From the NCBI GenBank assembly GCA_022432975.1, contig CM039515.1, positions 20,649,554 through 20,713,553 on the forward strand: a stretch of DNA of 64,000 nucleotides. Direction: 5' to 3'. Below the pieces are notes generated by a model. It saw only the letters and a program-made list of their open reading frames with translations. It ran no database searches and was not told where the DNA came from. Source of the stretch: Begonia masoniana. Lineage: Eukaryota > Streptophyta > Magnoliopsida > Cucurbitales > Begoniaceae. The position numbers were made by a program, and so were the translations under genes. Of the stretch, positions 1,574 to 57,635 are shown one piece after another. Position 1 is the first letter of the stretch. Each line of letters begins with the position of its first letter.

Positions 1574-5527
<3,954 letters not shown>

Positions 5528-5566: not shown

Positions 5567-5774
5567 TGTAACACCCGGCTTTACGGGATTTAATATTATT
5601 CCAATATTGTCGGCATTTTTGTAAATACGTCAAATTAAACCTGTTTTACGAACGGAAAGTTTTAACGAAGCCGTGATAATAAATTGGAATTTGTGGTGAA
5701 ATATGAGAATTTTAGAAAATCGGATCGCTAATTAAATAACGAGACAATTGGAGGAATAAGTTGAAATTTGATGG

Positions 5775-5818
5775 AAGGGCAATTTAGTCATTTACCAAGC
5801 CAAAGTTATAAAAAAATA
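5775..5818 (+). promoter_or_regulatory. Predicted U3 core promoter of R1 3' LTR
   Basis: AAGGGCAATTTAGTCATTTAC is followed about 15 bases later by TTATAAAAAAATA, a TATA box, and then a pyrimidine-rich tract typical of a plant initiator and leader. The GGGCA-N-GTAATTT element recurs upstream of TATA in the other LTR families here. Confidence 0.65.
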
Positions 5819-6170
5819 GGCAAAATGGTTTCTTCTCCAGCACTTCAACAAAAAACTCTTCTCTCCCTCCCCTTCGCGCGATTCTTCTCCTCTCCATCGG
5901 CAATTCTCCTCTCCGTGGTCGAAGCTTGTCCTCCGACGACTCGAGTCTTCACGTTTCTCTTCCGTCATCGCTCTCTAGGTATGGCTCTAAGCTTTTGGAA
6001 CGTTAAATATCAATTTCTAGGGTTTTAAACGATTAGGGTTCGTTAGGGTTTTCGTCGAAAACGCGAATCGATGTTTGAAATTGATAGGTTGAGCTTAGGT
6101 ATGCCTCTAATGGACGTATTCATGAGTATCCGAGCTTAGTTCGTCGGTTTGTTGAGGTGTATTTGAGTTT

Positions 6171-6926
6171 TTGGTTAAGTTGGAGCTTAAAAACCTCCAT
6201 TAATGGAGCTTTTGTAATGTCGAGCGCGAATTGCTCGACGAAATGCCTCAACGAACTAAAATAGAGTTTAGGAGATGTTTCTTTAGTTAGGAGTTAGCAA
6301 ATTTTGGAGTTTGATGATTTAGACTCGATTTAATGTCGTATATTGTGAAATGTATAGGTGAACAAACGCTCGTGGACGGAGCTTGGTGTGCAACGACACG
6401 AGGTAAGTTCTCGTGATCTATTGTGGCCAATTGGCCTACACCATAAGTCGGAATTCGTGTTGAGGATTGTTTGGTGATGTGTTTATTTGTATTGTTTCAG
6501 TTGGGTAGATTAGGTTCGGTTGTTTTTATAGGTTGTGTGTTATAGAGTATTGATGGTATGTTGGTTAAGTTGGAGCTTAAAACCTCCATTAATGGAGCTT
6601 TTGTAATGTCGAGCGCGAATTGCTCGACGAAATGCCTCAACGAACTAAAATAGAGTTTAGGAGATGTTTCTTTAGTTAGGAGTTAGCAAATTTTGGAGTT
6701 TGATGATTTAGACTCGATTTAATGTCGTATATTGTGAAATGTATAGGTGAACAAACGCTCGTGGACGGAGCTTGGTGTGCAACGACACGAGGTAAGTTCT
6801 CGTGATCTATTGTGGCCAATTGGCCTACACCATAAGTCGGAATTCGTGTTGAGGATTGTTTGGTGATGTGTTTATTTGTATTGTTTCAGTTGGGTAGATT
6901 AGGTTCGGTTGTTTTTATAGGTTGTG
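6171..6926 (+). repeat. Tandem duplication inside R1 3' LTR (about 389-bp step)
   Basis: About 366 bp beginning TTGGTTAAGTTGGAGCTTAA occurs at 6171-6536 and again at 6561-6926, nearly identical. Each copy contains the conserved exon-like block (first copy 6358-6402), its GTAAGT donor and the GGCCAATTGGCC palindrome, so this LTR has two copies of that exon. Confidence 0.92.
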
Positions 6927-7329
6927 TTATAGGTTGTATGCTTTACTGTTCATTGAATTGTTCATGCATCATGGTTTTTAAAAAAATGTCATGAAAATGA
7001 ATTTATGCACGGATTTCATGAAAAGAACATGCATGTAAAGGCAAGCAAAGTATCACAGTAAACAACCATGACATGGGGTTATCGGGGATGAGGTTCAGAC
7101 CTGGCGTTCCGTGGTGAGCGGGTTTCCCTCCCTTTAGATGGTGTGGGCTGTCTAATCGCTTAACGTGCCCTATCCATCTGTCGAGCGTTTCCGATAACCA
7201 TAGACTAACACGTACGGATATATGCATAGACATGGACGGTTTTCATAGTACAGAGCATACATGATCATGCATTAGCATTTACGTAGAGCTTACTGAGATT
7301 TTTATCTCATAGGTGTTTTTATGGTGTAG

Positions 7330-7376
7330 GTGATTTTGAGACAGGTGAGGATGATGTCCCTCCGCCTGAAGTATGA
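7330..7376 (+). other. Conserved LTR mini-exon, R1 3' LTR
   Basis: After acceptor GGTGTAG the sequence encodes, in phase 1, GDFETGEDDVPPPEV then TGA. Length from acceptor to stop is 47 nt. The same frame, acidity and length occur in other LTR families of this window. A terminal coding exon is inferred; no protein family is recognised. Confidence 0.55.
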
Positions 7377-7871
7377 GCACGTTGACGAAAGATGGCCCGT
7401 GGGAGTGCGCTGACAGTCGGTGCGTGATTTTGACCTGTGGGGACATAGGTAAATGTTTTGGAATTCAATAGAAAGAATATAGGAAATTTGTATAGATAAA
7501 CATTTTAGGATGCTTGGATCTGGATAGGTAGTTTGTGGTGTTTTTCTTTTGGGAAATTGAAAGTATTTTGTAATGTTTTGGTATTTTTAAACAGGAGGAA
7601 ATGTTAAACTTTTAAACGGAACCACGCGGTTCGTTTTCATGAAATTTAGTTATATTTTAAATGTATTTTGAGTCAGTGAGCGGATAGCGAGTGTAACGTA
7701 GGTGGGTGATAGTGTTATGGTGTAGAAGTGTGTTTTTGAGGAATGTATGAAATGGTGTGATAATGGAATGAGAAAGGTGATGAGTGTGTATTGGGTGTGT
7801 AAATGGTGTGCAGGGCGTGAAGAAAATAGAAAGAAGGAAGAGGAAGAGGAAAAGAGAGAAGGTGGGGGCGA

Positions 7872-8145
7872 GCCCTCTGGAAAGCGAATCCAGAGGGGCT
7901 GCCGAACGATCGCCAGGCAGGGCGATCGTTCGCCCCCCTAAGTAAAGAGAGAAGGTGGGGGCGAGCACTCTGGAAGCGAATCAGAGGGGCTGCCGAACGA
8001 TCGCCAGTGCAGGGCGATCGTTGAACTTCTCTGGAATTTCTAGAGAAGTTGCCGAGCGATCGCTAGGCGATCGCTTGGCATAGGGAGCAGATCGCCAAGG
8101 GGGCGATCAGCCAGGCGATCAGTCGCCTGGCGATGATCGCCCATC
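7872..8145 (+). repeat. CGATCG-rich palindrome block, R1 3' LTR
   Basis: Dense GCGATCG, GGCGATC and CGATCGC words, with CTCTGGAAT/TCCAGAG inverted arms. An approximately 94-bp unit from AAGAGAGAAGGTGGGGG is duplicated (about 7850 and 7944). The 5' LTR has only one copy of its GATC part. Confidence 0.85.
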
Positions 8146-8409
8146 ATTTTTATGGGACAGAGTCCCTTTTTGCCCCTCCCTTCACTGGCCGAAGTATTTC
8201 AAGTTATTTTTAAATGTTTTTGAATATGGTTTCATTTGTTTCCAGTTTTAATTTAATTGTTTAAACTATATCCAAATGGTTTTCAATTTTCTAAAAGATT
8301 TTAACGAGTTTAATTCTGCCTAAACGTTTGAAAGTTTAAATTGAGAATTAGTAATCGAAAAAGAAAATTTTATACGGGAAATTAAGGGTTAGGTTTAAGG
8401 GTCGTTACA

Positions 8410-9626: not shown

Positions 9627-10663
9627 TGTAGCACCCGGTTCTATTAAACCAACTTCCATTCCGTTATTTAATAGTAAGCATGTTGTGGAGAAAATTGAGG
9701 AAAGTATTAATTAGGTTAATGAGTGACTAAGTAAGGGCATAGTGGTAAATTGAGAACTTATAATGGATAACCTATTTAAGAAAAGAGGCTTTGTGATTAA
9801 ATGCACTGTAGCCGCCACTCTTTCCCTACTCTCCTCTCTCGGTAATCAGCTCAAGCAGTAGAGCTCTCTAGGCGATTCTTCCATCCAATTTTCTCCAAAC
9901 TAGGTGAGTTCTGTTTCGATTCCTTGCTGCATTGGTAACTATCGATGATTTGGGTAGTGGATAAATGTGAGTTTCAAGAATGCTGTGAGCGAACTAGTTC
10001 AGGTTTTATGGTAATCGGAGATGTATAACGAACTAAGCTCTTAAACTAGTTTTCTTAGACTTCTAGATAGTGTAGAATGAGGTTTAATAAAATCTAATCA
10101 ATAATCTGTCCATGGTTTTAGGTTGAGTAAGCTCCTAAAGTAGTTTACAACACCGAGCATTTCCAAGAGAGCCAGGTAAGTGAAGTATGCATGTGCCTTT
10201 GGGCCTACATCACAAAACAGTAGGATTATGTATTATGTGAATGAGTTTGTATGTCATGCATCATGTTTTTTTTTTTTTTAAGATTACGAAAATGAATTTC
10301 CATGTAAGGAATGGTAAGGCATGAACTGAATGTGACAGATAAACTATTAAGGGAACTAATCCACCCCTTAACTTATGAAGGGATTTATAACATTGGGAGA
10401 GTTGATCCCACTCCCAAGGGAACCTGGGGATCATTATAGCTGTTAAGGGAATTAATCCACCCCTTAATTGATGAAGAGGATTTATGACTTTGGGAGAGTT
10501 GATCTCACTCCCAATGGAATATTGAGATCAGATTACGATGAATGTGAATGCAACTGAGCTGGGAAAGTAGAAACTGCATGATTAAGATTTACATTTCAGC
10601 ATTCCATTTCATGATTGCTTCACTTATTTAGCATTAGGCTAATAGATGAGTTTTGTGATGTAG

Positions 10664-10710
10664 ATGAAGAAAAGACAGCAGGTGTGTTCTCTGAGTTTGT
10701 TGAGAGCTAG
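10664..10710 (+). other. Conserved LTR mini-exon, R2 5' LTR
   Basis: After acceptor GATGTAG the frame reads DEEKTAGVFSEFVES then TAG, 47 nt from acceptor to stop. Related to 57589-57635. The first base pair of the exon is AT instead of GT in this copy. Confidence 0.5.
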
Positions 10711-11040
10711 GCAGGTTAGGGGGTACATTCATGCATCGAACTGGCAGCTAACGGGGCGGTTTAACTGATGTCAGGAGTCGTGAAGGTTTAGTTGACAATG
10801 TTTCAATTTAAGTACGTTGAGTTTTTATAACAGTAGTAGTTTTAATGTTTTTTTTTGGAATACATCTTGAGACTTTCTATTAATGGTACTCTGTCAGTTT
10901 AATAGTGGTCTTACCATATTTCAGAGTAATACACTGATTTAAATAGTTTCGAATGGTTTTTAGTAAAATGTTCATGTTCTACTGGTAGAGTTTTCTTGTT
11001 AGAGTGAAATTGTTACTACGCTGTTTTCGTTGAGTATTTT

Positions 11041-11465
11041 TGATCTATCGATAGATGATGTCTATCGGCAGACGTAGAGTTGTTGTTCTGTTGACTATCG
11101 GATGATGTCTTCAGTAAAGTCACCGGATGATATCGAGTAATTTATTCATCGGATGATGAAGGTAAAAGTCTTTTGTCGTTTAGCGATCGGTTGATGTCGG
11201 GTATGAAACCTATCGGATGATGTAGTAGAAGTTTGTCGTTTTGTGATCGGTATATGTAGTTTGTTCTATCGGAAGACGTGAGTAAAAGTTTTGTCGTCTT
11301 GTAGTCGGCAGAGGCTGGATGAACAAATCATCCGGCTGACGTTACCGGTAGATGCGAGTAGCAAAAACTTGTCGTTTTGCGATCGGCTGAAGTTGGAAGA
11401 GTGATTCTTCCGGCTGACGTCATCGACTGAAGTTGGAAGAGTGATTCTTCCGGCTGGCGTCATCG
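11041..11465 (+). repeat. CGGATGATG/CGGCTGACGTC minisatellite in R2 5' LTR
   Basis: Degenerate repeats built from TATCGGATGATGT, TTTTGTCGTTT and TTCCGGCTGACGTCATCGG. Includes TGACGTCA at 11415-11422, a palindromic plant bZIP (TGA/CRE-type) binding core. Confidence 0.8.
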
Positions 11466-11791
11466 GTGGAAGTCTTCGGTTTATTTCTTTTTGTTGACCT
11501 TGTCTAGCGGCAGATGCGTTTGACTTTTACAATTTTCATGTTTCCACGCTTAAGACTTGGTCGAACCAATTCCTACTATTTCAATTGATATTTCCAAACA
11601 TTAATTTACAACCCCGTTTAATCTCTGCTTGTTTTCAAATGATTTTTCCGCTGTGAATTTTAACGTTGTGGTTTCAGTGAACATCTAGTTTTGACTTTCA
11701 AGTGAAATTTTAAGTTTGGTCCAAAATTTCCTAGTTATGTTCGGATTTATGAGTAACGAACTGAGTTTAGAAAACTCGGGGCGTTACAGTA

Positions 11792-11803: not shown

Positions 11804-11943
11804 CATTCAGTTAAAACGGTCAAAAGATTACTTATCAGTGACAATCGTTGCATGGGAGTACTCTAACAACAGTAAGTGTTTATGTTAGCTTTAGCTATAA
11901 GATGATTATGAGAGTAGTTAACCCTATGCAGAAATTTAGTATT

Positions 11944-13975
11944 ATGGCCAAACGCCCAGGGAGGCCTAGAGTACCAAGAGAAATGCCGAATGTGAGAAGT
12001 GAAGAGGAGCCTAGTGTGATTAGGCAGTTGACAGATTTAGTGCGTCAGCAAACTGATTTAGTGCGCCAACAGTCCGATCAGTTGGGTGTGTTGTTGAACC
12101 GAGATGTACAAGGAAGCGCTAACTCGAGTTCTAGCGGTGAGCACTCTGGAGACAGAATTCGGAGACTTCAGCCGCCTACATTTGATGGGAAGTCAACTAA
12201 TCCCACTGTTGCTGAAGAGTGGCTCAGAAAGGTTGAGAGTATGTTTAGGTATGCCAATATTGAGGAAGGAGACAAGGTCACTCTGGCAACATTCCATCTG
12301 GCTGGCGAAGCTCAACTCTGGTGGGAGTCTATGGAAACCGCCGCTGATGCCCTTGCTATGTCTTGGACACAATTCAGAGAAGTTTTCTATGAGAAGTATT
12401 TCAACAGCACTGTCCAGGCCGCTAAGAAAGTTGAATTTTTGAGCTTGAAACAGACGGCATTCGAGTCCCTGTCAAGATTTGCCGGACATCTTGTCCATAG
12501 GAATGAAGATAAAGTGTTTCAGTTTATGAATGGACTAAAGCCAGAGATTTTCAGAGGAGTCAAGTTTACTGGCATCAAAGGCTTGTCCTTCAGCGAGGTT
12601 GTGTCCACTGCGTTGGAAGTGGGGGATGCGGAAATGAAGTGTACTAGAGCAAGAGAAACCCCACGGAAGTTTATCCAACCACATCAACAGAGTGGAACAA
12701 AAAGGCCTAGTGAAAGCCAGAACAGTCAAGGAACGGGAAAGAAGGTACAGGACACCAAGAAGTATCCTCAGTGCCCGAAGTGTCTGAAAAGTCACCTGGG
12801 TGAATGTAGGTTCGGATTGGGAAAGTGTTTTAACTGTGAAGAGGTTGGACACTCGTTCAAGGATTGCCCAAAGCCCAGGATCATTCTATGTTTTCATTGT
12901 AACAAAGTCGGCCATATCAACAGGGACTGCCCAGCCTTGAAGAGTGGCCCTGCCAAGGTAAAGCCAAGGATATTCTCTATGATGGAGACGGGCGATGATG
13001 AACAACCTGTCGTGGTGTCAGGTACCATATTGATCAACTCTACCCCTGCCTTTACTTTAATAGATTCTGGTGCAACACATTCTTTTATAGCCTCTACATT
13101 TGCTGATAAGCTAGATGTACAGTTTATCCCCACTGAGCATGTGTTTAACGTAGCATTACCCTATGGTGAGCGCATGTACTCTAATCAAGTGATACCGGAT
13201 AGCGTTGTATTAGTGGGAAGCATGAATTTGCCTGCTGACCTCATTATTATGGATATAACGGGATTTGATGTAATTATAGGAATGGATTGGTTGTTCAAGC
13301 ATTATGCCACGATCGACTGTAGGACTGGAATAGTTAGTTTCCAACCCCCTGGTAGTTTGAAACATACCATTCAAGCTTCAAAGAAAAGTAAGAAAATGTC
13401 TGTGATGACTTCTATTAACACTAGACCTTCCCCATATAGAGAGTACTTGTGCTTCTTAGCTAGCGTTTTAGACACACAGCATGTAGAAAAAGCAAATCCT
13501 CAAAATGTCTTAATTGTCCAAGACTTTCTTGATGTATTTTTAGATGACCTTCCAACTTTACCACCAGATAGGGAAATTGAATTTGTTGTAGATGTTTACC
13601 CCGGTGCCGAGCCTGTGTCTAAAAATCCATATAGGTTAGCACCAACAGAACTTAAAGAATTAAAGAAACAGTTGGAGGATTTATTGGAAAAAGGGTTCAT
13701 ACGCCCAAGCTTTTCACCGTGGGGTGCACCCGTCCTTTTTGTCAAAAAGAAAGACGGATCAATGCGTATGTGCATTGATTATAGAGAATTGAACAAGTTA
13801 ACTGTCAAGAACAAATATCCACTGCTTAGAATCGATGATTTATTTGACCAGCTTAATGGTGCACGTGTTTTCTCTAAAATTGACCTTAGGTCCGGCTATT
13901 ACCAATTGAAAGTCAAATCTGAGGATATCCCTAAGACAGCCTTTCGCACAAGATATGGACATTATGAGTTTTTTT
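11944..13975 (+). pseudogene. gag-pol: R2 gag, protease and N-terminal RT
   Basis: The frame is open from upstream; I prefer the ATG at 11944 ([14 protein letters not shown]) because it begins the basic gag N-terminus. Then come a repeated coiled-coil motif ([15 protein letters not shown]), the gag core ([31 protein letters not shown]), [12 protein letters not shown], and two knuckles, [14 protein letters not shown] and [14 protein letters not shown]. Protease has [13 protein letters not shown] (DSG, an accepted variant of DTG) and [10 protein letters not shown] has [18 protein letters not shown] and [15 protein letters not shown]. An extra base in the T run at 13968-13975 shifts the frame just before MSFGLTNAP. 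Otherwise it is nearly intact over about 680 codons. Confidence 0.92.
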
Positions 13976-16700: not shown

Positions 16701-17907
16701 AACAAACCTCTCTTTTTCCTCTCTCTCCCTTTCTGTTTTTCACAATTCCAGAGAGCCGAAGCTCTCTCTCCCTCTCTGTTTCTCCTCTCCTTCCCGCGGC
16801 TATTTCCTTCAACGCCGATCAACGGCTTCCCTCCTCCGATTCCTTCGATTTTCTTCGACGATTCAATCTTTTAGGTAACCTCTAAGCTGTATGCACGTTT
16901 ATTTGTCGATTTAAGGTTGTATTCGTTAGGTTTTATCGATTAGGGTTTGATGACAAATTGTCGGATTTAGTTAGAAATCGATAGTTTAACGATGTTAATG
17001 CCCGATTAGGATGTATTGATGATTGTTGGAGAAATTAGAATGGATTAATAGTGTTGGTTGAAATTATAGTTGATTTTGATTTAATTTTAGAATTTGTTGT
17101 GAATGGTGAAATGAGGCTTAGAAATTAGTGAGCATAACGTGCTCGATGTAATGCCCGAGTGAAAGGAAAATGAAGTTTTAGGAAATATTTCTTTAGTTAG
17201 GAGCTAGATTTAAGTTTGAGATTCGTTTATTTAGGTTCGATTTTTATGCCTTTAATTGTGAAATGCTTTAGGTGGAGACAACTCTTTGGACGGTGCACGG
17301 CTTGCTACGGACTCCAGGTAAGTGGATGTTAGGTTTCCGGCCCTTAAGGCCCTACATCGTGTCAACGTTAGGTTTTTGTTGTTTGATGATGATTTTCTGA
17401 TCGTGGGGTTTGTTGTGTCGGGTAGCCTAAGATGTTACTTTTTAGTTGTTGTTAAGTTCGTTATAAGTAAAGCATGTCTATGTATGTTATGGATTATTTG
17501 GTGATATGTCTCGATGATATGTTATACTCAGGTTCCTCATGCATCATGTTTTCTTAAATGTTATATGAAATGCTTCATGCCTAATGTATGTAAAAGAAAT
17601 GTCACGATTTCGTGTGGGTGGGACTGTATGGCCATATACAACAAAACTATTGTCACTATCCACGCGTTGGATCATGAATACGGCCGAAAGGACTATGTAC
17701 ACGCACTTGGCCATGCCTCCCTGACAAGATGCCCACCTTAATCCATGTTAAAGAAAGAAAAAGAATAAGAATAAGTAAATGAACATGTTTTATGAAATGT
17801 CATGCATACATGTAGAGTCGTTATAGTGCATCCCCTTACTAAGCATTAGGCTTAATGTTTATGTTGTATGATGTAGTGACAGGTGTGAAGGTGAGAGTTT
17901 CTCTCGA

Positions 17908-18950
17908 TTAAATGCTATTCACTTTTCATTAAATGCTATTCACTTTTCATTAAATGCTATTCACTTTTCATTAAATGCTATTCACTTTTCATTAAATGCT
18001 ATTTTACTTTTTATTAAATGCTATTCACTTTTCATTAAATGCTATTCACTTTTCATTAAATGCTATTTTACTTTTTATTAAATGCTATTCACTTTTCATT
18101 AAATGCTATTTTACTTTTTATTAAATGCTATTCACTTTTCATTAAATGCTATTCACTTTTCATTAAATGCTATTCACTTTTCATTAAATGCTATTCACTT
18201 TTCATTAAATGCTATTTTACTTTTTATTAAATGCTATTTTACTTTTTATTAAATGCTATTCACTTTTCATTAAATGCTATTCACTTTTCATTAAATGCTA
18301 TTCACTTTTCATTAAATGCTATTCACTTTTCATTAAATGCTATTCACTTTTCATTAAATGCTATTTTACTTTTTATTAAATGCTATTTTACTTTTTATTA
18401 AATGCTATTCACTTTTCATTAAATGCTATTCACTTTTCATTAAATGCTATTTTACTTTTTATTAAATGCTATTCACTTTTCATTAAATGCTATTCACTTT
18501 TCATTAAATGCTATTCACTTTTCATTAAATGCTATTCACTTTTCATTAAATGCTATTCACTTTTCATTAAATGCTATTCACTTTTCATTAAATGCTATTC
18601 ACTTTTCATTAAATGCTATTCACTTTTCATTAAATGCTATTCACTTTTCATTAAATGCTATTCACTTTTCATTAAATGCTATTCACTTTTCATTAAATGC
18701 TATTCACTTTTCATTAAATGCTATTCACTTTTCATTAAATGCTATTCACTTTTCATTAAATGCTATTCACTTTTCATTAAATGCTATTCACTTTTCATTA
18801 AATGCTATTCACTTTTCATTAAATGCTATTCACTTTTCATTAAATGCTATTCACTTTTCATTAAATGCTATTCACTTTTCATTAAATGCTATTTTACTTT
18901 TTATTAAATGCTATTCACTTTTCATTAAATGCTATTCACTTTTCATTTGT
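17908..18950 (+). repeat. 21/22-bp minisatellite expanded in R3 5' LTR
   Basis: About 49 units. The common 21-bp unit begins ATTAAATGCTATTCACTTT. A 22-bp variant reads ATTAAATGCTATTTTACTTT then TT and appears about nine times, mostly in the first half; one long run (about 18470-18885) is the 21-bp type only. The 3' LTR has under 200 bp of the same repeat. The long reading frames through it are by-products of the unit lacking stops. Confidence 0.97.
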
Positions 18951-18963
18951 TTTGGTTCTTACA

Positions 18964-20407
<1,444 letters not shown>

Positions 20408-20534: not shown

Positions 20535-20686
20535 GATTGAGTTTTAAAAGCGATTCTACGGACTGCCTGCCAAACATGAACCGCCGCACGAGGACTCTCC
20601 ATCGACTGTAAGTATTTAAGTTTAAGTATGATTCATAGATGTTTATATTGCTTTGTCTTGTGTTGTATTGTGTCTAGGAACAAGAA

Positions 20687-21241
20687 ATGCCGGAAGCACC
20701 TAGACAGCCTGAGGAGAATCTTATTAGCCAGCTTATAGACGTAGTGCACCAACAATCCGAACTGATAGAGATTTTACTCAACCGAGATGGGAATGGTAAT
20801 GGGCAAGGTAATGATTCATGGAACCGGGGTAGAGAACAAACTAGGCAATTTCAACCTCCAACGTTTGGTGGATATGTTATGGATCCGAATCAGGTTGAGG
20901 GGTCCCTTGATGATTTTCCGTCACCCTCAGTCAATGAAAGGCCACCACCAGCGAGGGACATTAAGAGGGCCAATGATTCGTTGATCGTGCAGGATAGGAG
21001 CGAACGACCCCGAGGAGCTCATCAGGCTCCTTTGTGCCCTATATGTCGGAAAAGTCATTTCGGGGAATGTAGATTGCATTCGGACCGATGTTTTAGATGT
21101 GATAGGAGGGGTCACAGAGCCAGGGATTGTCTTGGGCAGAGCAAGAAACTACCGAGTTGTCCCTCAAGGACAATTGCTATGACTGAAGATAGGGAAGCTG
21201 CCCAACCAAGCGTGGTTCCAGGTATAATTTTATTTCAATAG
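20687..21241 (+). pseudogene. gag: R3 internally deleted gag remnant
   Basis: Open for 184 codons from ATG 20687, after a short leader. The N-terminus (ISQLIDVVHQQSELIEILLNRD) resembles the R2 gag coiled coil. FQPPTFGGYVMDPNQVE marks the start of the gag core, but the core is missing and a proline-rich bridge leads straight to CPICRKSHFGEC and the knuckle CFRCDRRGHRARDC. It ends after AQPSVVPGIILFQ, the point where protease would begin. It may still make an RNA-binding peptide with a coiled coil and one knuckle. Whether it is expressed is unknown. Confidence 0.85.
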
Positions 21242-23708
21242 TTGATAGAATGAATAACATTAATATAGAGGTGTAGTTTAGAATAAGGGTTAATGATAAT
21301 ACGCATACAATAGGTTGAAGTAGATTTGAAACTAGAGAGGTTAGAAAATGTGGGGATCTGGAGACACGATGATGTATACCTCAATTTAAGGAGAGGAAGA
21401 TTGTTATGCATTAAGACAGGTAGCCTAGTTTGATACTACTAGTATGTCTAAATGAATAAGGGTCAAAGTAGGAACTCTTATTTTTAGGCTAGCGCAAAGT
21501 TTGAAGTATTTAGGTAAAGGTAATGTTTGAGGTTCCAGCTCAAGTAAATTGTTGAAGGAAAATGGAGGTGCCGTTACTTTTACAAAGATAGTGCGATTGA
21601 TCGATACGAAGTCCAGGATGTATAGTCAGGGTGGTTACATAGAAGTACTAGTATTGACAAATTTCGATGAGGGAGGTATTGAGATCTAAGAGAGATTGGT
21701 AAGTTACTAAATGTAGAGACAATAAAGGATTAAGGTTATATGACAGATGATACTCCAGTTATATAGTTTGGACGTTCTCTAGGAGATAGGTACCATCTTA
21801 AAGGACTAAAAAAATAAAAAAATAAAAAAAAACGAAGGACAAATATTGATACGTGAAAAGATTATGACCGCCACTAAATAGAAAAGAAGACTTAGTAAAG
21901 TTAAGAGTGACCAATAAATAAAAGATGCGTTGGGCAATTAGATGCTGCTTAACCTAGGGACATAAGGCAATGTATGAGAGTTAGAAATTATTGATAACGC
22001 CTAAGAAGTGTAACAAAATTTTGATGAAGGGTTTAGCACCTTAGATTGAAAGTCAAGTTTAGAGGTCCAGTACACCTCGTTCAAGTTAGAGGAGCTGGTG
22101 AATTGACAAGGGTAAGCATCAATTATAGGAGATATAACAAGGATAAAAGATTTCAAATTCTTTCGGTTATGAGCGTTGGAATTAAGAAACGAGTCTATAG
22201 TGATATAGTTTAATTTAAGAACCCCAGACATGGAGCTTGTTTCCAGGATGAATGTAGGAACATCAGTATTCGAGGAACTAGGAGGGTAGACCTTGACGAA
22301 GAGATATTTTTTTTAAATCTTTGGAAAATACAAGGACAAGATTTGGAAATTTAAGGGATTAAGATTAAGGTTGTAACTCTACCTACAACAAGTTTGCTAA
22401 CAAGAAGAATCGTTAGGTAAATTGTTGTTAAGAAACCAAGTAGAATAATTAGAACCCGACTGGAAGGGATGAAAGATAGTAAAGTAGTTAGTAACCTTCG
22501 AGGAAGTCCTTGGAAGATAACAAAGGTAAGTGTAAAGCTTTGCTTAATTAAATGAGCGATTTACGATAGAGGTTAAACTCGATTGTGAAGTCTTGCGAAT
22601 AAGGGATTTAAGAGTTATCAAGTACATTAGAAATAAGATTGAATTAGGAAGCTTCAAAGATTTGACCCGTATGTAACGAAGTCGAAGCCAACGATTTTGT
22701 GAATAGCTAAGGTTAAGGTTGATAAACTTGAGAGTGCGAAGGAGATCGTAACTTGAGGAAATAGAAACTATGTGATATAAGGTGAAATGGCCGGTTAGAT
22801 AGAATTCGGGTTTTCAGATAGTGTTGTGCAGGTAAGTAAGAGAAATAACTAGATCAAAGGAGGGATTGGAATAAGAGTCAAGTAGTCAAGATTATAGGAT
22901 TTCGAACATATTGAACGAAAGGAAGAAAGATTTGTTCGAAGACTGTGCAAGGGAGCTTAGAAGTGAGATTAGAACGAGAAATATAGGAAAGTTACAAATA
23001 GTAGGTTACCACGATTGCTTGTGCACCCTTTACGGTGTTGGGTGGATAGGTTAACGAATTAATCTAGACTTAAGAATTTCTTAGTGAATTGATGAAGCCC
23101 GAGGTAAGAGTTGAATGGAACGAGCATAGTGGACATAAACATAGAAACTTCGAGGATACCGTAAAAGCGTCGAGAGGTAGATTTAAGTGCTTAAGCCCTG
23201 AGTATAAGAATGACGATAGAGTAGTTAAGGAAATGTATTGATTGCCCAAAATATGTAGGTATAATGGATGAGAGTGCTAAATAGGAAATGAGGTAGTGGT
23301 GTAAAGAAGAGTTCGAAATGGAGGGTTAGAATGAAGAATCTACGTATCAAGTCCTTAGTGTCATTAATTGAAGAAGCTTTAAGGGTTTAATATAGTTAGT
23401 TGAGCATTGTTGTCACGAAACTTGAGGAGTTAGAGATCGAGTGAACTTAGCTTGATGTTAAGTTAGAGGAAATTTAAGGTTCTAAAAGACAAAGGATTGA
23501 GTCGAAATCGATAAATGTACTAGCGATTGAGTTACGAAGTGTGTAGTTGAAAGGATTTTGAACTTTGGAAATGTAAGACGCTCTCAAGAACCGAAGAGTG
23601 ATTAAGACCATAATGGTGTTGAGGTTAGTTTTACGAACGTCGTATTTAAATAATGTGAGGGTGATTGATTTGAAGTTAACCAAGCAATAATTTTGGGGAC
23701 AAAATTCC
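21242..23708 (+). other. R3 internal non-coding region
   Basis: About 2.5 kb, A/G-rich on the plus strand, with no long open frame and no protease, RT or integrase motif that I can recognise. A short A-rich tract (about 21808-21832) is present. It is either decayed pol or filler typical of non-autonomous LTR elements. Confidence 0.75.
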
Positions 23709-23725: not shown

Positions 23726-25286
23726 TGTAACACCCGATATTTTTGGGTATCCGCTCCAGGGGTATTTCTGTAAATAGTAAATATAGGTCCGTTTCGCGAG
23801 CGGTCGGTTATATTAGGACCCTAGAAATTTATAGAGATTTTTAGAAGAATAAGCAAAATTTTAGAAATCCAATCGATAGTGTAACGCCAAATTACGGTTT
23901 TCCACTTATAAAGTTTTAAGTCGTAAAAATAGTAAATTAAGTCCAAATTGCGAACGGGAAGTTTCGTTAGGACCCTAGAATTAAATAAGAATATTTGGAG
24001 AAATAAGGGAATTTTGGAGAAACCAAATCGATAGACGAAATCGCGAGTTAAGTAAAGAAAACTAACTAAGGGCAATATGGTAATTTGGAAAGTTAATTTT
24101 TATAAAAATAACAAACCTCTCTTTTTCCTCTCTCTCCCTTTCTGTTTTTCACAATTCCAGAGAGCCGAAGCTCTCTCTCCCTCTCTGTTTCTCCTCTCCT
24201 TCCCGCGGCTATTTCCTTCAACGCCGATCAACGGCTTCCCTCCTCCGATTCCTTCGATTTTCTTCGACGATTCAATCTTTTAGGTAACCTCTAAGCTGTA
24301 TGCACGTTTATTTGTCGATTTAAGGTTGTATTCGTTAGGTTTTATCGATTAGGGTTTGATGACAAATTGTCGGATTTAGTTAGAAATCGATAGTTTAACG
24401 ATGTTAATGCCCGATTAGGATGTATTGATGATTGTTGGAGAAATTAGAATGGATTAATAGTGTTGGTTGAAATTATAGTTGATTTTGATTTAATTTTAGA
24501 ATTTGTTGTGAATGGTGAAATGAGGCTTAGAAATTAGTGAGCATAACGTGCTCGATGTAATGCCCGAGTGAAAGGAAAATGAAGTTTTAGGAAATATTTC
24601 TTTAGTTAGGAGCTAGATTTAAGTTTGAGATTCGTTTATTTAGGTTCGATTTTTATGCCTTTAATTGTGAAATGCTTTAGGTGGAGACAACTCTTTGGAC
24701 GGTGCACGGCTTGCTACGGACTCCAGGTAAGTGGATGTTAGGTTTCCGGCCCTTAAGGCCCTACATCGTGTCAACGTTAGGTTTTTGTTGTTTGATGATG
24801 ATTTTCTGATCGTGGGGTTTGTTGTGTCGGGTAGCCTAAGATGTTACTTTTTAGTTGTTGTTAAGTTCGTTATAAGTAAAGCATGTCTATGTATGTTATG
24901 GATTATTTGGTGATATGTCTCGATGATATGTTATACTCAGGTTCCTCATGCATCATGTTTTCTTAAATGTTATATGAAATGCTTCATGCCTAATGTATGT
25001 AAAAGAAATGTCACGATTTCGTGTGGGTGGGACTGTATGGCCATATACAACAAAACTATTGTCACTATCCACGCGTTGGATCATGAATACGGCCGAAAGG
25101 ACTATGTACACGCACTTGGCCATGCCTCCCTGACAAGATGCCCACCTTAATCCATGTTAAAGAAAGAAAAAGAATAAGAATAAGTAAATGAACATGTTTT
25201 ATGAAATGTCATGCATACATGTATGAGTCGTTATAGTGCATCCCCTTACTAAGCATTAGGCTTAATGTTTATGTTGTATGATGTAG

Positions 25287-25321
25287 GTGACAGGTGTGAA
25301 GGTGAGAGTTTCTCTCGATGA
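25287..25321 (+). other. Conserved LTR mini-exon, R3 3' LTR
   Basis: Acceptor GATGTAG, then frame GDRCEGESFSR and TGA, shorter than in most families (35 nt). The 5' LTR copy has lost one G at the acceptor and its stop context. Confidence 0.45.
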
Positions 25322-25979
25322 AAAAAAATAGGTGGTTGAAGGGGAGGATCGTGGCGACGGGCGTGTTTTGGCTTGGCATGACGACTCGTGTATGGATTCT
25401 GAATATTTGGGATGTTATGATGTATAGAAGATCATGAGTGAAAAGAACGATGAAATTTTAGGTTGTTTAGACGAATTTGATATTTTGGGTATAGGTGGAA
25501 GAATGTAGACTTGGAGTTGTTTATCTGGGGGAATTGAGGTGTCTTTTGTTTTGTTTTGGTAAAGTTAGTATTATAACTGAAATTATGTTGATGATTTAGG
25601 CGTTTTGAATCTGTGGGGATTGACTCAGTTTTAAGGCTACCCACGCCATTTGTTTTTAAGAAGTTTCTGTTAAGTTTTGGAATTAAATGATCGAGTGGTT
25701 TTAAAGTGTTTAGCATGTTTAGTGTGTAAAATTTGAAGTATTTAAGGTGCAGGAATGAGAATAAAGTTTATAGTTGCTCTCTGGAATCTGTGATTTCGGA
25801 GAGCATTCTCATAGAAATTAATTATAGAAATTAATTGGTGTTTGCTCTCTGGAATGTGTAAATTCCAGAGGGCTATGTACAAAAGGGGGAAGAGAGGATG
25901 TAGCGACTGGGCGCTGGAATGGAGAGCGATCAGTAGCCCTCCTTGTTCTTGGGTCAGCTACTGATCGCTGATCAGAGAA

Positions 25980-26215
25980 GAGATTGATCGCTATGCTTAG
26001 CAGCATCAGCGATCGATCTCTATTATTTATAGAAATCGATCGCTGATAAGGATTTAAGCATCAGCGATCGATCTCTATAATTTATAGAAATCGATCGCTG
26101 ATGGGTATTGGAAAACCAGCGATCGATCTCTATGAATTATAGAGATCGATCGCCCTTGTCCCTAAATGACCAGCGATCGATCTCTATGTTATATAGAGAT
26201 CGATCTCCATCTTTT
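25980..26215 (+). repeat. CGATCGAT palindrome block, R3 3' LTR
   Basis: Four inverted units of about 55-65 bp, each of the form AGCGATCGATCTCTAT then an AT-rich centre then ATAGA(A/G)ATCGATCGC, giving strong hairpins. Absent from the R3 5' LTR. Confidence 0.9.
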
Positions 26216-26410
26216 TATTAAATGTTGTTTGACCTTTTTATTAAATGCTATTCACTTTTCATTAAATGCTATTCCACTTAAATGCTATTTTACTTTTTAT
26301 TAAATGCTATTCACTTTTCATTAAATGCTATTCCACTTAAATGCTATTTTACTTTTTATTAAATGCTATCCCACTTTTTATTAAATGTTGTTTTACTTTT
26401 TATTTAAATT
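26216..26410 (+). repeat. Short form of the ATTAAATGCTATT minisatellite
   Basis: About eight units including variants ATTCCACTTA, ATTTTACTTTTT and ATCCCACTTT. This is the probable unexpanded state of the array at 17908-18950. Confidence 0.9.
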
Positions 26411-26604
26411 CTGTTTTACGGTTTTACCCTCCCTTTTATTAATAGTTTTAAATTGATTTAAATTATGTTTAATTAGTTGTTTTCTGGGAGTTACAGAAGT
26501 GTCAAAAAAAAAATTATTACATAGTTCTACGAGAGTAGGGAGGTTGAGTTGGGATTAAGTTATGGCTAGGCCGTGACGGCCCTGACCGGATTGGGGTCGT
26601 TACA

Positions 26605-26706: not shown

Positions 26707-27778
26707 TTGAATTTTGAGGACAAAATTCTTTTAAGGAGGGTAGATTGTATCACCCGGTTCTATTAAACCAATTTCTATTCCGATATTTAATAGTAAGCAT
26801 GTTGTGGAGAAAATTGAGGAAAGTATTAATTAGGTTAATGAGTGACTAAGTAAGGGCATAGTGGTAAATTGAGAACTTATAATGGATAACCTATTTAAGG
26901 AAAGAGGCTTTGTGATTAAATGCACTGTAGCCGCCACTCTTTCCCTACTTTCCTCTCTCGGTAATCAGCTCAAGCAGTAGAGCTCTCTAGGCGATTCTTC
27001 CATCCAATTTTCTCCAAACTAGGTGAGTTCTGTTTTGATTCCTTGCTGCATTGGTAACTATCGATGATTTGGGTAGTGGATAAATGTGAGTTTTGAGAAT
27101 GCTGTGAGGGAACTAGTTCGGGTTTTGTGGTAATCGGAGATGTATAACGAACTAAGCTCTTAAACTAGTTTCCTTAGACTTCTGGATAGTGTAGAATGAG
27201 GTTTAATAAAATCTAATCAATAATCTGTCCATGGTTTTAGGTTGAGTAAGCTCCTAAAGTAGTTTGCAACACCGAGCATTTCCAAGAGAGCCAGGTAAGT
27301 GAAGTATGCATGTGCCTTCGGGCCTATATCACAAAACAGTAGGATTATGTATTATGTGAATGAGTTTGTATATCATGCATCATGTTTTTTTTTTAAGATT
27401 ACGAAAATGAATTTCCATGTAAAGAATGGTAAGGCATGAACTAAATGTGACAGACAAACTATTAAGGGAACTAATCCACCCCTTAACTTATGAAGGGATT
27501 TATAACATTGGGAGAGTTGATCCCACTCCCAAGGGAACCTGGGGATCATTATAGCTGTTAAGGGAATTAATCCACCCCTTAATTGATGAAGATGAATTAT
27601 GACTTTGGGAGAGTTGATCTCACTCCCAATGGAGTATTCAGATCAGATTACGATGAATGTGAATGCAACTGAGCTGAGAAAGTAGAAACTGCATGATTAA
27701 GATTTTCATTTCAGCATTCCATTTCATGATTGCTTCACTTATTTAGCATTAGGCTAATAGATGAGTTTTGTGATGTAC

Positions 27779-27825
27779 GTGAAGAAAAGACAGTAGGTGT
27801 GTTCTCTGAGTTTGTTGAGAGCTAG
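27779..27825 (+). other. Conserved LTR mini-exon, R2 3' LTR (acceptor lost)
   Basis: The frame REEKTVGVFSEFVES and TAG remain at the conserved 47-nt spacing, but the preceding AG is AC, so this copy could not splice there. Confidence 0.4.
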
Positions 27826-28149
27826 GCAGGTTAGGGGGGTACATTCATGCATCGAACTGGCAGCTGACAGGGCGGTTTAACTGATGTCAGGAGTCGTGAA
27901 GGTTTAGTTGACAATGTTTCAATTTAAGTACGTTGAGTTTTTATGACAGTAGTAGTTTTAATGTTTTTTTTTAATACATCTTGAGACTTTCTGTTAATGG
28001 TACTCTGTCAGTTTAATAGTGGTCTTACCATATTTCGGAGTAATACACTAATTTAAATAGTTTCGAATGGTTTTTAGTAAAATGTTCATATTCTACTGGT
28101 AGAGTTTTCTTGTTAGAGTGAAATTGTTGCTACGCTATTTTCGTTCAGT

Positions 28150-28590
28150 ATATTTGATCTATCGATAGATGATGTCTATCGGCAGACGTAGAGTTGTTGT
28201 TCTGTTGACTATCGGTTGATGTCTTCAGTAAAGTCACCGGATGATGTCGAGTAATTTATTCATCGGATGATGAAGGTAAAAAATTTTTGTCGTTTAGCGA
28301 TCGGTGGATGTCGGGTATTAAACCTATCGGATGATGTAGTAGAAGTTTGTCGTTTTGTGATCGGTATATGTAGTTTGTTCTATCGGAAGACGTGAGTAAA
28401 AGTTTTGTCGTCTTGTAGTCGGCAGAGGCTGGATGAACAAATCATCCGGCTGACGTCACCGGTAGATGCGAGTAGCAAAAACTTGTCGTTTTGCGATCGG
28501 CTGAAGTTGGAAGAGTGATTCTTCCGGCTGACGTCATCGGCTGAAGTTGGAAGAGTGATTCTTCCGGCTGGCATCATCGGTGGAAGTCTT
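28150..28590 (+). repeat. CGGATGATG minisatellite in R2 3' LTR
   Basis: Counterpart of 11041-11465. TGACGTCA occurs at 28451-28458 and 28529-28536. Confidence 0.8.
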
Positions 28591-28902
28591 CAGTTTATTT
28601 CTTTTTGTTGACCTTGTCTAGCGGCAGATGCATTTGACTTTTACAATTTTCACGTTTCCACGCTTAAGACTTGGTCGAACCAATTCCTACTATTTCAATT
28701 GATATTTCCAAACATTGATTTACAACCCCGTTTAATCTCTGCTTGTTTTCAAATGATTTTTCCGCTGTGAATTTTAACGTTGTGGTTTCAGTGAACATCG
28801 AGTTTTGACTTTCAAGTGAAATTTTAAGTTTGGTCCAAAATTTCCTAGTTATGTTCGGATTTATGAGTAACGAACTGAGTTTAGAAAACTCGGGGCGTTA
28901 CA

Positions 28903-33962: not shown

Positions 33963-34009
33963 TCACTCCTCAGGTGGAAGGATCTCGTCCTCACCTATAT
34001 CAGGATCAC
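33963..34009 (-). other. Conserved LTR mini-exon, R5 LTR
   Basis: Minus strand, after acceptor GTGTAG: GDPDIGEDEILPPEE then TGA, 47 nt. The preceding exon-like block (34622-34571) is open in the joining frame and ends LRTTG at the junction. Confidence 0.5.
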
Positions 34010-41485: not shown

Positions 41486-43049
41486 ACATCTGTAACGCCC
41501 AGAAACTTCGGTTATGGGTTTTGAGTTTTAGGTTTTCGGATTTCCACTCTTAGGGATATTTTTGTAAATTAGCAAATTAAGCCCGTTTTGCGAACGGAAA
41601 GTTTCATTAGAACCCTAGTGATTTATATGGATTTTTAAAAGAATAAATAGAATTTTAGAAATCCAAATCAATTCTGTGAAGCTCGGGTTCCGTTTTTTTT
41701 AACCCTATAGCGTTTTAATTGGTAAAAATAGTAAATTAGATCCGATTTTGAAACGGAGAGTTTTGTTAGAACCCTAGGAATAAGTTGGAATATTTGGAGG
41801 AATAAGGGAGTTTCGGGGAAATCAAACCGGTATACGAATTGTGAACGGAGTAAGGAAATTGAACTAAGGGCAAAATTGTAATTTAGGAAATCAAAATTTA
41901 TTTAAAACAAAAACACCCCCCTTCCATTCATTGTTTTTCCAGATCGTGAAATTTCCTCCCCCCTCCCTTAGGCGATTTCTTTCCTCCTCCATTGTTCCTT
42001 CGACGATCAACCAACGCCTCCTCCTCCGGCGTCTTCTCTTCGAGTTTTCTTCTCCAAATCGACACTCTAGGTAAGTTTTACGCTTTGAGCTCATTTAGTT
42101 GTGGCTTTAGGTCGATTTAGGTTTAGGGTTTTGGGAGAAGTTTTCGAAATTCGTTAGAAATTGATAGGGTTACAAGATTAATGTTCATTGACGTTGTATT
42201 TACGATTTTTGGTGATTGTTAGGTGAAATTTAAGGTGGTTAATGGATTTAGGTTAGAATTTGGATTGTTGGAGGTTGGTAAAACACCATTAATGGAATTT
42301 TTGAATTATTGAGCGCATTGTACTCGACGAAATGCCCAAGTGAAGTGAATATGAGTTTTAGGAAAAAATTGTCTTAGCTCAGGTTTTCATTTAGTTGTGA
42401 AATTTACGATTTAGAGTCGATACTAATGACGTGTTATGAAAATGCCTTAGGTAACCCAAACTCTCAAAGGACGGTGCTCGGCATAGCTAGGACTCCAGGT
42501 AAGTGGGTGTTAGGTTTCCGGCCCTTCAGGCCCTACATTGTATTGATGTTAGGTTTTATGATGTTTTCTGATTGTGGGGCTTAAACTAGCCGGGTAGTTT
42601 AGGATGTTCCCTATTAGTACTCAGTTAGATTCGTATATGAGTAAGATTCGTTTATGTGTGCCATGAACGGTTAGATGATGGTTCGGAGTCTCTTTCTTCA
42701 CGCATCATGTTTTTCCCTTATGATTTAATGAAATGTTTTGCATTGACGTTTTCAAGTAAACCAAGTAAAGTAAATGATGTTAAATGAAGTTGGAGGATGA
42801 GTAGCGCACGGGGCACGTAAATGGCAACTCAGGGCACGATAATATGTTAATGGCAACTCATGGCAAGTGTTTGGTCTACTGGGTAGACGGGTGGTGCCAG
42901 TGCCTACTCATGCCTGATGATATATATGTTAAGTAAAGTAAATAAACGAAAAACGAACATGTTTTAAAAGACCATGCATTATGTATTCTCATGTTTTAGT
43001 ACACCTCCTTACTAAGCATTAGGCTTAATGTGTTTATCGTATGATGTAG

Positions 43050-43096
43050 GTGACGAGCACGAAGGTGAGGAACCTCTTCCTGATGATCACGCATAG
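43050..43096 (+). other. Conserved LTR mini-exon, family F copy 1
   Basis: After acceptor GATGTAG: GDEHEGEEPLPDDHA then TAG, 47 nt, identical in 53838-53884. Joined to block 42451-42498 the frame stays open (TVLGIARTPG at the junction) and continues into the leader (QIDTLG). Confidence 0.55.
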
Positions 43097-43644
43097 ATGG
43101 TCGGTGGATTGAGCTCGTTGTGGTGGGGCGTGTTTTGGTTAGGCTGGATGATCCGTGGGTATACTCCGAGCGTTTTGTGGTAAATAGGTGTGATTTGGAT
43201 TGATTTTGGATGATAATTTTAGGACGTGTAGAGAGGTTCGATATTTTTGGTAAATGTATAGTGGAGGTAGGCTTGGAGTAAAGTCGTTTAGAATGATTCG
43301 AGGAATGTCATTGTTTTGATGAAATTTTATGGAATTTCCGCTTTATGTTTAACTTTGGTGTTATGAATTAGATGGGATGTTATTTGATGATTTTTAGGTA
43401 TTTTGAGTTGTATGGATTAGCTCGGTTTTTAGAGCTATCCACGCGATTTATTTTCATGAATTTTTAACACGGATTCGGGTATGTTTTGAGTCGGTTTTTT
43501 TGGGAGATTGAAGTGTGGTTTGTTTAATGTGGTTGGGAATGTTTTTGGAGGGTTCAATGTGAAGAGGAGGTGTTAGAAAAGGGAAAGAATGGGTTAAGTG
43601 TATGAAAAGGGAGATTTGGGCGCTGCTGGGCGGGCGCGCGCCAG

Positions 43645-43935
43645 GTGGGTTTCCTGGCGAATGATCGCCCCGGGTGGCGATTGTTTGCCACCCCCTCTGG
43701 AATTGGTTGCCAATTCCAGAGGAGGTGGCAATCGTTCGCCACTCGTGACGAACGATCGCCTCAGTCGCATGCCGTTCGTGCGTGCGCGCTGGGCGTTAGG
43801 CGATCGATGGGCGATCATACGGGGCGAACGATCGCCCCAAATTGGGCGATCGATCGCCCCTCGTTTTTCCTTCGCTGGCAACTGATCGCCAGTAAGGAAG
43901 GGCGATCAGTCACCCCTCCTTTGGCTGGCAGTTGA
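43645..43935 (+). repeat. GATCGCC palindrome block in family F LTR copy 1
   Basis: Begins with GC-rich GGGCGGGCGCGCGCC, then CCTCTGGAATTGG-TTGC-CAATTCCAGAGG (a 13-bp stem) and many GGCGATCG/CGATCGCCCC words. Confidence 0.87.
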
Positions 43936-44139
43936 CAACTTTACCCCCTTTATTTTATTGATTTTGTTTATTTTGTTTTTAGTTTGTTTGAAGTGTTTAA
44001 AAAAATAAAAATAAATAAAAATAATAAAAAAAAATTTACCTATGTCTAAATAAGGAGGCTAAGTTAGAAGTAAGTTATGGTTAGGCCGTGACGCCCCTGA
44101 CCGGTTGGGGTCGTTACAACGTCAGCCAAATGACTTATT

Positions 44140-44840: not shown

Positions 44841-44887
44841 TTAAACTTCGGGCGGAGGAACGTTATCCTCACCTATATCGAAGTTAC
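44841..44887 (-). other. Conserved LTR mini-exon, R4 LTR
   Basis: Minus strand, after acceptor GCGTAG: GNFDIGEDNVPPPEV then TAA, 47 nt. Compared with the R1 copy, seven of eleven base changes are third-position and the stop changes TGA to TAA. Confidence 0.55.
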
Positions 44888-48052: not shown

Positions 48053-48099
48053 GTGATTTCGAGACAGGTGAGGACGACATTCCTCCACCCAAAGTATGA
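48053..48099 (+). other. Conserved LTR mini-exon, shared R6/R7 LTR
   Basis: After acceptor GTGTAG: GDFETGEDDIPPPKV then TGA, 47 nt. Against the R1 copy there are eight base differences, six at third codon positions. Confidence 0.55.
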
Positions 48100-53837: not shown

Positions 53838-53884
53838 GTGACGAGCACGAAGGTGAGGAACCTCTTCCTGATGATCACGCATAG
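53838..53884 (+). other. Conserved LTR mini-exon, family F copy 2
   Basis: Same 47 nt as the copy at 43050-43096, with acceptor GATGTAG. With leader ATG 52758 and the middle block it would make a product of about 60-65 residues with a hydrophobic/basic N-terminal part and an acidic C-terminus. Function unknown. Confidence 0.55.
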
Positions 53885-57588: not shown

Positions 57589-57635
57589 GTGAAGAAGTGA
57601 CAGCAGGTGTGTTCACTGAGTTTGCTGAGGACTAG
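57589..57635 (+). other. Conserved LTR mini-exon, family B solo LTR
   Basis: After acceptor GATGTAG: GEEVTAGVFTEFAED then TAG, 47 nt. Joined to the block ending at about 57109 it reads FSRRPG at the junction. Confidence 0.5.

Follow-up and report, generated by a model that had tools for sequence, protein, structure and literature searches.

Acidic reading frames inside the LTRs

We analyzed a stretch of 64,000 nt from Begonia masoniana (assembly GCA_022432975.1, contig CM039515.1, positions 20,649,554-20,713,553 of the forward strand; hereafter the window) that contains retrotransposons whose long terminal repeats (LTRs) fall into families designated A, B, C, D, E and G. The original prediction held that these LTRs carry a short acidic terminal exon with a fixed stop position. 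Our best explanation of this segment, hereafter exon 3, is that gag is spliced across pol into the exon 3 of the 3' LTR, which would give Gag an acidic tail; we put the probability of this reading at roughly 0.55. The candidate coding tails are as follows.

7330-7376, + strand: exon 3 coding tail, family B, 3' LTR of element R1; frame xGT|GAT, stop at +47
10664-10710, + strand: exon 3 coding tail, family A; stop at +47
27779-27825, + strand: exon 3 coding tail, family A, acceptor damaged to TGTAC; stop at +47
33963-34009, - strand: exon 3 coding tail, family B; stop at +47
43050-43096, + strand: exon 3 coding tail, family D; stop at +47
44841-44887, - strand: exon 3 coding tail, family B; stop at +47
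48053-48099, + strand: exon 3 coding tail, family B; stop at +47
53838-53884, + strand: exon 3 coding tail, family D; stop at +47
57589-57635, + strand: exon 3 coding tail, family A; stop at +47
60351-60397, + strand: exon 3 coding tail, family E; stop at +47
25287-25321, + strand: shorter exon 3 tail, family C (non-autonomous element); stop at +35
62766-62806, + strand: shorter exon 3 tail, family G, apparent solo LTR; stop at +41

Direct reading confirmed the predicted stop 47 nt from the acceptor in 10/10 of the longer copies, in the frame xGT|NNN that starts two bases past the acceptor, together with the acidic peptides and the use of TGA, TAG or TAA as stop codon. The shorter versions announced for families C and G are also present. 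The acceptor (G/A)TGTAG, claimed for all ten copies, fails in the copy at 27779, and the exon at 10664 starts with ATGAAG.

Domain content, a primer-binding site (PBS)-like sequence and LTR structure lead us to assign the elements to Ty3/gypsy, with the clade named Tekay by resemblance. A domain search of pieces of the A element returned Retrotrans_gag, RVP_2, RVT_1, RNaseH, H2C2 and SH3_Tf2-1, the Ty3/gypsy order of gag, protease (PR), reverse transcriptase (RT), RNase H (RH) and integrase (INT); the integrase core itself was absent from these matches. The only Pfam match at the integrase C-terminus was to SH3_Tf2-1, with none to the chromodomain, and by eye this C-terminus is chromodomain-like. 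One frame of 729 amino acids (aa) in the A element holds gag, protease and the start of RT, hence a single gag-pol frame, and the gag/PR border of family B sits in open frames of up to 1,492 aa, consistent with the same organization. The PBS-like TGGTATCAGAG was found 3' of the R1 LTR. The LTRs are long, as in Tekay (2,843 nt for the R1 3' LTR and about 2.16 kb in A); complete LTRs of Bongo elements in beet are given as about 2.6-3.0 kb in the relevant part of PMC3605345. Duplications of 5 bp flank the two elements examined for them, GGTTC for the C element and TAGTG for the G solo LTR. The LTRs of the window are listed below.

5567-8409, + strand: 3' LTR of R1 (family B), by self-comparison and end reading; the R1 5' LTR ends at 434
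9627-11788, + strand: 5' LTR of the A element, by self-comparison; its 3' LTR (26746-28902) is 97% identical
23726-26604, + strand: 3' LTR of the C element (non-autonomous); its 5' LTR starts at 16317, with GGTTC on both sides
Near 41530-44118 and 52514-54894: D LTRs, by self-comparison and end reading
From 59100: E LTR, by self-comparison and end reading
61154-63921, + strand: G LTR, apparent solo LTR between two TAGTG, by self-comparison and end reading

The C element, which is nested in the A element, is young; its LTR pair is 99.75% identical over the first ~1,598 nt.

Coding selection on exon 3

Codon-level comparisons drew on a core sample of 59 acceptors accepted by motif rules from 102 regular-expression matches, with five added by hand. 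The sample came from the window, places of the B family and 200 kb of stretches chosen regardless of the motif, and was complemented by 40 small loci. These loci were picked for diversity among the first 100 of 20,271 genome matches to a strict pattern of hairpin start and acceptor (10,243 + 10,028; 0 for the reversed control). The window belongs to a genome of 795 Mb.

In hand-picked subfamilies, the ratio of nonsynonymous to synonymous divergence (dN/dS) was 0.29 for B (n=7), 0.36 for A (n=8) and 0.29 for E (n=5), with column permutation p-values of 0.018, 0.14 and 0.007, respectively; the corresponding ratio of uncorrected differences (pN/pS) was 0.76-1.59 in the two other frames. We then used 70 unique open reading frames (ORFs), obtained from the 90 of 104 copies that remained after excluding ORFs of <11 or >19 codons. 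This gave dN/dS of 0.35 in B (n=38; p=0.00025), 0.43 in A (n=10; p=0.026) and 0.60 in E (n=22; p=0.046), values that are pairwise counts and not tree-aware. Groups were assigned by simple rules, so that 4 B-like sequences fell in E and one of 71 unique ORFs (G) was left unassigned. The dN/dS ratio is thus below 1 in the three groups, and not near 1 as the original prediction had named for its refutation.

Column permutation keeps shared ancestry, and we therefore used the adjacent intron and the sequence 3' of the stop as controls, based on the copies from the window and loci L001-L048. Diversity was in excess at third positions inside the ORF (p=0.0004 in B, 0.0098 in A and 0.0144 in E). No such excess was found in the 45 nt 3' of the stop (p=0.39, 0.68 and 0.87) or in the adjacent intron (p=0.36, 0.29 and 0.77), and the lowest p-value of any control frame was 0.054 (E intron, position 1). 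The third-position counts given in the original prediction were reproduced: 6/8 differences between the copies at 7330 and 48053 are at position 3, as are 7/11 between those at 7330 and 44887(-).

Because in-frame stop lengths are multiples of three by construction, the distance from the acceptor to the second GGTGA word is a fairer test of indels. This distance was 14, 17, 20, 23 or 26 nt, and hence frame-preserving, in 70/70 copies carrying the word, out of 102 (the 104 copies above include two duplicates that this count drops). Frame-breaking indels, another outcome that the original prediction had named for its refutation, were thus not seen before this word. In the 40 small loci, the first in-frame stop was found at +47 in 18, +56 in 8, +32 in 5 and +50 in 2, and at +53, +59, +65, +35 and +8 in one each; two had none, one of them N-masked. 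Across copies, the stop of exon 3 is maintained while TGA, TAA and TAG replace one another. Reduced dN/dS, a third-position excess bounded by the stop and frame-preserving spacing support the claim of a protein-coding segment under selection, and we consider it almost certain, judging from the genomic copies, that the 47-nt segment is a coding exon inside the LTR.

A conserved splice module upstream of exon 3

The LTRs share a common order of parts: exon 1, exon 2, intron 2, CTTAC, a hairpin and the acceptor TG[AG]TGTAG|GTGA. Exon 1 is pyrimidine-rich and mostly ends in AG|GT, with donors that were chosen by rule and of which some may be wrong. Exon 2 measures 44-57 nt where both ends are recognizable (for a few cases picked by rule, with 58-69 nt, the limits appear to be wrong) and ends in AG|GTAAGT, or ATAAGT in the E copy. 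Intron 2 was 478-652 nt long in 12/12 window copies examined. In R1 the parts lie as follows.

6747-6791, + strand: LTR exon 2, 45 nt, not coding in a constant phase
6792-7329, + strand: LTR intron 2 (GTAAGT ... TGTAG), 538 nt
7289-7312, + strand: branch-point-like CTTAC, then the conserved hairpin that precedes the acceptor

Among 15 representative sequences, hand-picked and hand-trimmed, 90.7% of the cells of the hairpin pair, with two-sided change in 8 cells. The covariation score was reached by 0/500 shuffles, which indicates that the hairpin at the acceptor is kept through compensatory change. An Rfam scan of the window at gathering score gave 0 matches. We also observed an inverted pair, GCC-loop-GGC(C), followed mostly by CTACA, just 3' of the exon-2 donor in the families of the window (e.g., 6792-6840, 42499-42540 and 62148-62190). 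At two loci, L049 and L050, other elements have inserted into the LTR acceptor at an identical base; the search pattern favored finding them.

The original prediction also called the segment a terminal exon. The anatomy speaks for this part of the claim, with a conserved acceptor, the hairpin and a stop kept amid codon exchange, and we regard it as highly probable that exon 3 is a terminal exon reached by splicing. There is strong support from the aligned copies that exon 3 begins in phase 1, i.e., with one base from an upstream exon followed by GT, and ends at a selected stop. A second GGTGAG within exon 3 was considered as the donor of a micro-exon of 15/18 nt (CAG|GTGAGG), an arrangement in which the leader would be very short. 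We rejected this as its sole role because the codon periodicity is that of the ORF taken as a whole, up to the stop; the motif may serve as an alternative donor.

A candidate donor at the gag/protease border

The original prediction left out the coding partner of exon 3. To look for it in gag-pol, every codon column was scored as a splice donor across the available copies with at least 7 copies required, giving 7,596 column-phase combinations, many of which count the same position twice since the A and B queries overlap. The A query covered 9 copies (4 A, 3 B and 2 mini-Gag) and the B query 8, and scores depend on a hand-entered plant weight matrix. A donor score >4 in all copies was found only at the gag/PR border in phase 1, from both queries, and this is the phase required by exon 3.

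1643-1645, + strand: Gly codon G|GT of the gag/PR border, proposed donor, R1 (family B)
13021-13023, + strand: Gly codon G|GT of the gag/PR border, proposed donor, A element

The border reads NCA G|GT, with a Ser/Thr codon ending in A and Gly encoded by GGT in 21/21 A copies; the donor is kept in 18/21 B copies. The fetched borders were 20 of 150 listed matches for each of A and B, chosen towards low identity. As a comparison, of 111 columns in which A and R1 have the same V/A/P/T/G/S residue, 34 agree in the third base. From this conservation and the matching phase, we give the gag/PR donor a little better than an even chance of being the partner of exon 3.

It is unlikely that the partner is instead another exon, with its donor elsewhere in pol, between pol and the LTR, or in a host exon. 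A phase-1 exon 3 would accept any phase-1 donor, and single copies do have strong ones, such as the R1 gag donor at 1407. That donor is absent from relatives and was rejected, gag-pol has no column besides the border with a donor in every copy, and the two mini-Gag elements examined retain exon 3 though their gag part has no protease following it.

Mini-Gag elements retain the proposed donor

Non-autonomous relatives carry the features below, here for the C element.

20687-21241, + strand: mini-Gag ORF, 184 aa, zinc-knuckle part
21221-21223, + strand: proposed donor codon G|GTATAA near the mini-Gag coding end

Aligned with the 480-aa A gag query, the C mini-Gag covers its beginning and its zinc-knuckle end and leaves residues 129-286 unmatched. 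Mini-Gag C-termini, ...QPSVVPG|IILFQ* in the C element and ...QPSAVSG|RVLS* in the element at locus L045, fall right on the border at which protease would start. Searching the genome with the C-terminal part of the mini-Gag from C gave 150 scored matches with 71-100% identity (of 20,658 first-look candidates), many of them in open frames of 203-208 aa, and this frame length suggests that these are further mini-Gag elements. We fetched 20 of the 150 listed matches, chosen towards low identity, and found AG|GTA at the donor point in 19 of them (18 CAG and 1 AAG), as well as in C and L045; one had lost the GT.

Before the donor, mini-Gag coding sequence shows pN/pS of 0.57 and 0.14, 0.16 and 0.20 differences per site at positions 1, 2 and 3. 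Over the four codons from the donor to the usual stop the values are 0.19, 0.23 and 0.16, no longer in excess at position 3. A 1-nt deletion lies immediately 3' of the donor in one copy. Weighing on the other side, 16/21 mini-Gag copies share an in-frame stop 5 codons past the donor codon, and the 12 nt up to it differ at 0.19 per site vs 0.17 in the coding part, rising to 0.40 only past the stop. Since divergence rises only there, an unspliced mini-Gag ending at the shared stop is possible, and the evidence on whether mini-Gag coding ends at the donor is mixed. C-type donors score 7.2-9.4 vs 4.8-5.8 in autonomous copies on the hand-entered matrix. A stronger donor would be expected in mini-Gag elements because they need no unspliced pol mRNA, but the L045 donor scores 5.6, no better than autonomous ones.

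A block of ~320 nt past the mini-Gag (window 22190-22510; L045 5722-6036) is 73% identical between these divergent non-autonomous elements. It has no open frame common to both, and a DNA-level match over the mini-Gag itself was not found.

Coding partners within the LTR and other alternatives

We also searched the LTR itself for a coding partner. Unspliced reading through the acceptor was rejected, and the upstream frame needs splicing, because a stop lies no more than 22 codons before 45/59 acceptors. An improbable alternative is a gene confined to the LTR, in which exons 1-3 of one LTR would encode a micro-protein with an acidic tail independently of gag. Both upstream exons and the splice sites around them do recur across families, an exon 1 ATG frame is in phase 1 in R1, in the E copy and in the second of the D copies, and the phase of exon 2 would fit in D, in G and in many B copies. 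However, exon 2 (donor found for 45/59 acceptors) was rejected on phases and stops, as its length is not constant modulo 3 and stops interrupt both of its frames in A as well as in further families. The exon 1 frame was rejected as well: an in-phase ATG is present in 6/32 candidates and missing in 26/32, bearing in mind that some rule-picked donors may be wrong, and it is not kept in B, where exon 1 diverges within the family. These results suggest that the partner is probably outside the LTR. Although the nearest upstream donor is that of the LTR, gag is the most likely partner, and exon 3 would consequently act in the 3' LTR.

It is very improbable that selection acts at the RNA level only, with a purine-rich exonic splicing enhancer that happens to read as acidic codons and a stop that is inherited. 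The segment is rich in GAA/GAG/GAT, as is typical of such enhancers, and the families share ancestry. An enhancer, however, predicts neither a third-position excess ending at the stop, nor frame-preserving spacing, nor stop exchange, and these observations together with dN/dS favor coding constraint. Least probable of all is that exon 3 acts in the 5' LTR leader as an untranslated part or a regulatory upstream ORF, since, although it occurs in both LTRs and the leader exons end in good donors, no in-phase AUG is conserved upstream and exon 2 lacks an ATG in all six families of the window that were checked (single copies elsewhere have one).

Evidence against gag splicing into the LTR

Several observations weigh against splicing of gag to a coding exon 3. 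Taken alone, the A pairs of the window have 0/1, 0/6 and 0/7 differences at position 3, although wider A samples do show a third-position excess (p=0.14, 0.026 and 0.0098 in three successive tests). Tails of C are short and variable (5/40 small loci at +32 and 1 at +35), in 3 of the 40 small loci the stop is missing or comes very early, and A-like copies are open above the acceptor over the 22 codons shown. Two of five covariation measures of the hairpin, pairs with two-sided change and pair types, lie within the shuffles (161/500 and 227/500). At the gag/PR border, the donor is lost in 3/21 B copies and wobble conservation is modest, with invariant fourfold-type columns numbering 7/32 in A, where several rows are identical, and 11/29 in B; the autonomous donor (CAG|GTACTA) has no G at +5 and scores 4.8-5.8.

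Searches were also made for products of the splice. The exon 2|exon 3 junction of B had 0 genomic matches at 2 mismatches, and the gag|exon 3 junction of B had 2 at 3 mismatches, both of them LTR ends of other elements at the acceptor. Missing spliced copies would be expected if the spliced RNA is not replicated, and this gives no support either. A protein look-up for Gags with an acidic tail returned 4 weak Gag relatives without the tail, and the C-terminal part gave 0 matches. Finally, the accessible part of a study of triticale reports one intron in 13/15 GAG-RNAs and a single Ty3/gypsy GAG-RNA, which has none (PMC7765848); this result counts against a general gypsy version of the model.

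A model for a Gag-only mRNA

We propose the following model. Unspliced RNA from the 5' LTR would serve as genome and Gag-Pol mRNA, with the module copy in that LTR supplying the promoter and non-coding leader exons. A fraction of the RNA would be spliced from the gag/PR border, at the donor NCA G|GT A... in the Gly-Thr of the protease start (phase 1), to the 3' LTR acceptor that the hairpin marks. This would remove pol, U3 and the leader exons of the LTR and make exon 3 of the 3' LTR the last exon of a Gag-only mRNA. As the gag cut and exon 3 are both in phase 1, the junction codon would be Gly, and spliced Gag would end in Gly plus about 14 acidic residues. Placed between CTTAC and TGTAG, the hairpin probably masks closer AGs and brings the branch point nearer to the acceptor. 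Non-autonomous relatives encode mini-Gag and retain the same proposed donor. More speculatively, the acidic tail may offset the basic nucleocapsid or mark Gag-only molecules.

The model is supported by coding selection on exon 3, conservation of the acceptor and hairpin, the phase match and the conserved candidate donor; actual splicing, the choice of partner and the function of the tail are inferred. By a narrow balance, we favor the broader view that a plant Ty3/gypsy group with ~20,000 LTR acceptors carries a Gag-only switch and a conserved acidic tail in its LTR, and that a parasitic lineage has shrunk to LTRs, mini-Gag and this intron. If true, thousands of LTR copies, in a part of the element usually treated as non-coding, can contain a coding exon under selection. 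Such an exon may supply a short acidic tail to the coat protein (Gag) and explain how coat protein is made without the enzymes. For annotation, host transcripts spliced into such LTRs would presumably gain the same acceptor and the acidic tail or stop.

Other features of the window

A GTAAGT donor soon 3' of the PBS region and an AG shortly 5' of the gag ATG (521-600, 11872-11933 and 20600-20690) suggest a further leader intron between PBS and gag. The LTRs of the C element contain a tandem array with a 21-bp unit (17907-18947 and 26211-26416), of which the 5' copy is by far the longer. Two stretches of nothing but T, of exactly 500 (3026-3525) and 1,440 bases (18968-20407), yield artefact ORFs and are perhaps assembly gaps written as T.

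Comparison with known systems

In CRM chromoviruses the end of the polyprotein overlaps the 3' LTR, with pol running on unspliced. The proposed system is alike in that LTR sequence encodes a protein C-terminus, but in R1 the frame that includes the end of the integrase reaches its stop at 5527, which is 39 nt short of the LTR start at 5567. Splicing to a downstream coding exon is described for the Ty3/gypsy element Cer1 CERV of C. elegans, where, in the pertinent part of PMC10309623, a five-exon mRNA joins exons of the polyprotein frame to a downstream exon and yields an extra protein; here the downstream coding part would be about 15 codons and lie inside the LTR. Among plant Ty3/gypsy elements, Ogre (Tat lineage) shows partial splicing, which controls its polyprotein output through an intron between GAG-PROT and RT-RH-INT (PMC6317226, in part). 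Ogre splicing joins GAG-PROT to RT-RH-INT, whereas the splicing proposed here would remove pol and use an acceptor in the LTR.

According to a 2025 review, plant LTR elements are generally without introns, Ogre and EVADE being notable exceptions (PMC12786077). Sunflower Tekay members were missing from the set of expressed elements (PMC7730604). A term search of PMC7264820, which reviews the additional ORFs of LTR elements in plants, did not return "within the LTR", "inside the LTR" or "Tekay". In the accessible parts of the open-licence literature we found no description of an LTR-encoded Gag tail, nor of a Gag:Pol solution for single-frame plant chromoviruses.

Elements with fused gag and pol are thought to require far more Gag than Pol, and one copia answer is splicing (PMC12786077, in part). 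The Ty1/copia elements EVADE of Arabidopsis and BARE1 of barley produce a Gag-only mRNA (shGAG) by splicing near the end of gag, while the unspliced RNA encodes Gag-Pol (parts of PMC12786077 and PMC3735527). The likeness to the elements of the window is a single gag-pol frame and, as proposed, a Gag-only mRNA made by splicing near the gag end; a donor at the end of gag and in frame may have its equivalent here in the conserved candidate donor, known from genomic sequence. In shGAG, as far as these portions go, the intron lies inside gag-pol and is followed by a frameshift stop, whereas here pol as a whole is the proposed intron. The elements studied here further differ in having Ty3/gypsy domains, an acceptor in the LTR and an LTR exon under coding selection. 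If true, our model would provide a concrete and testable answer to the need for excess Gag in single-frame plant chromoviruses, and under it the proposed Gag-only mRNA would be a Ty3/gypsy counterpart of the copia shGAG.
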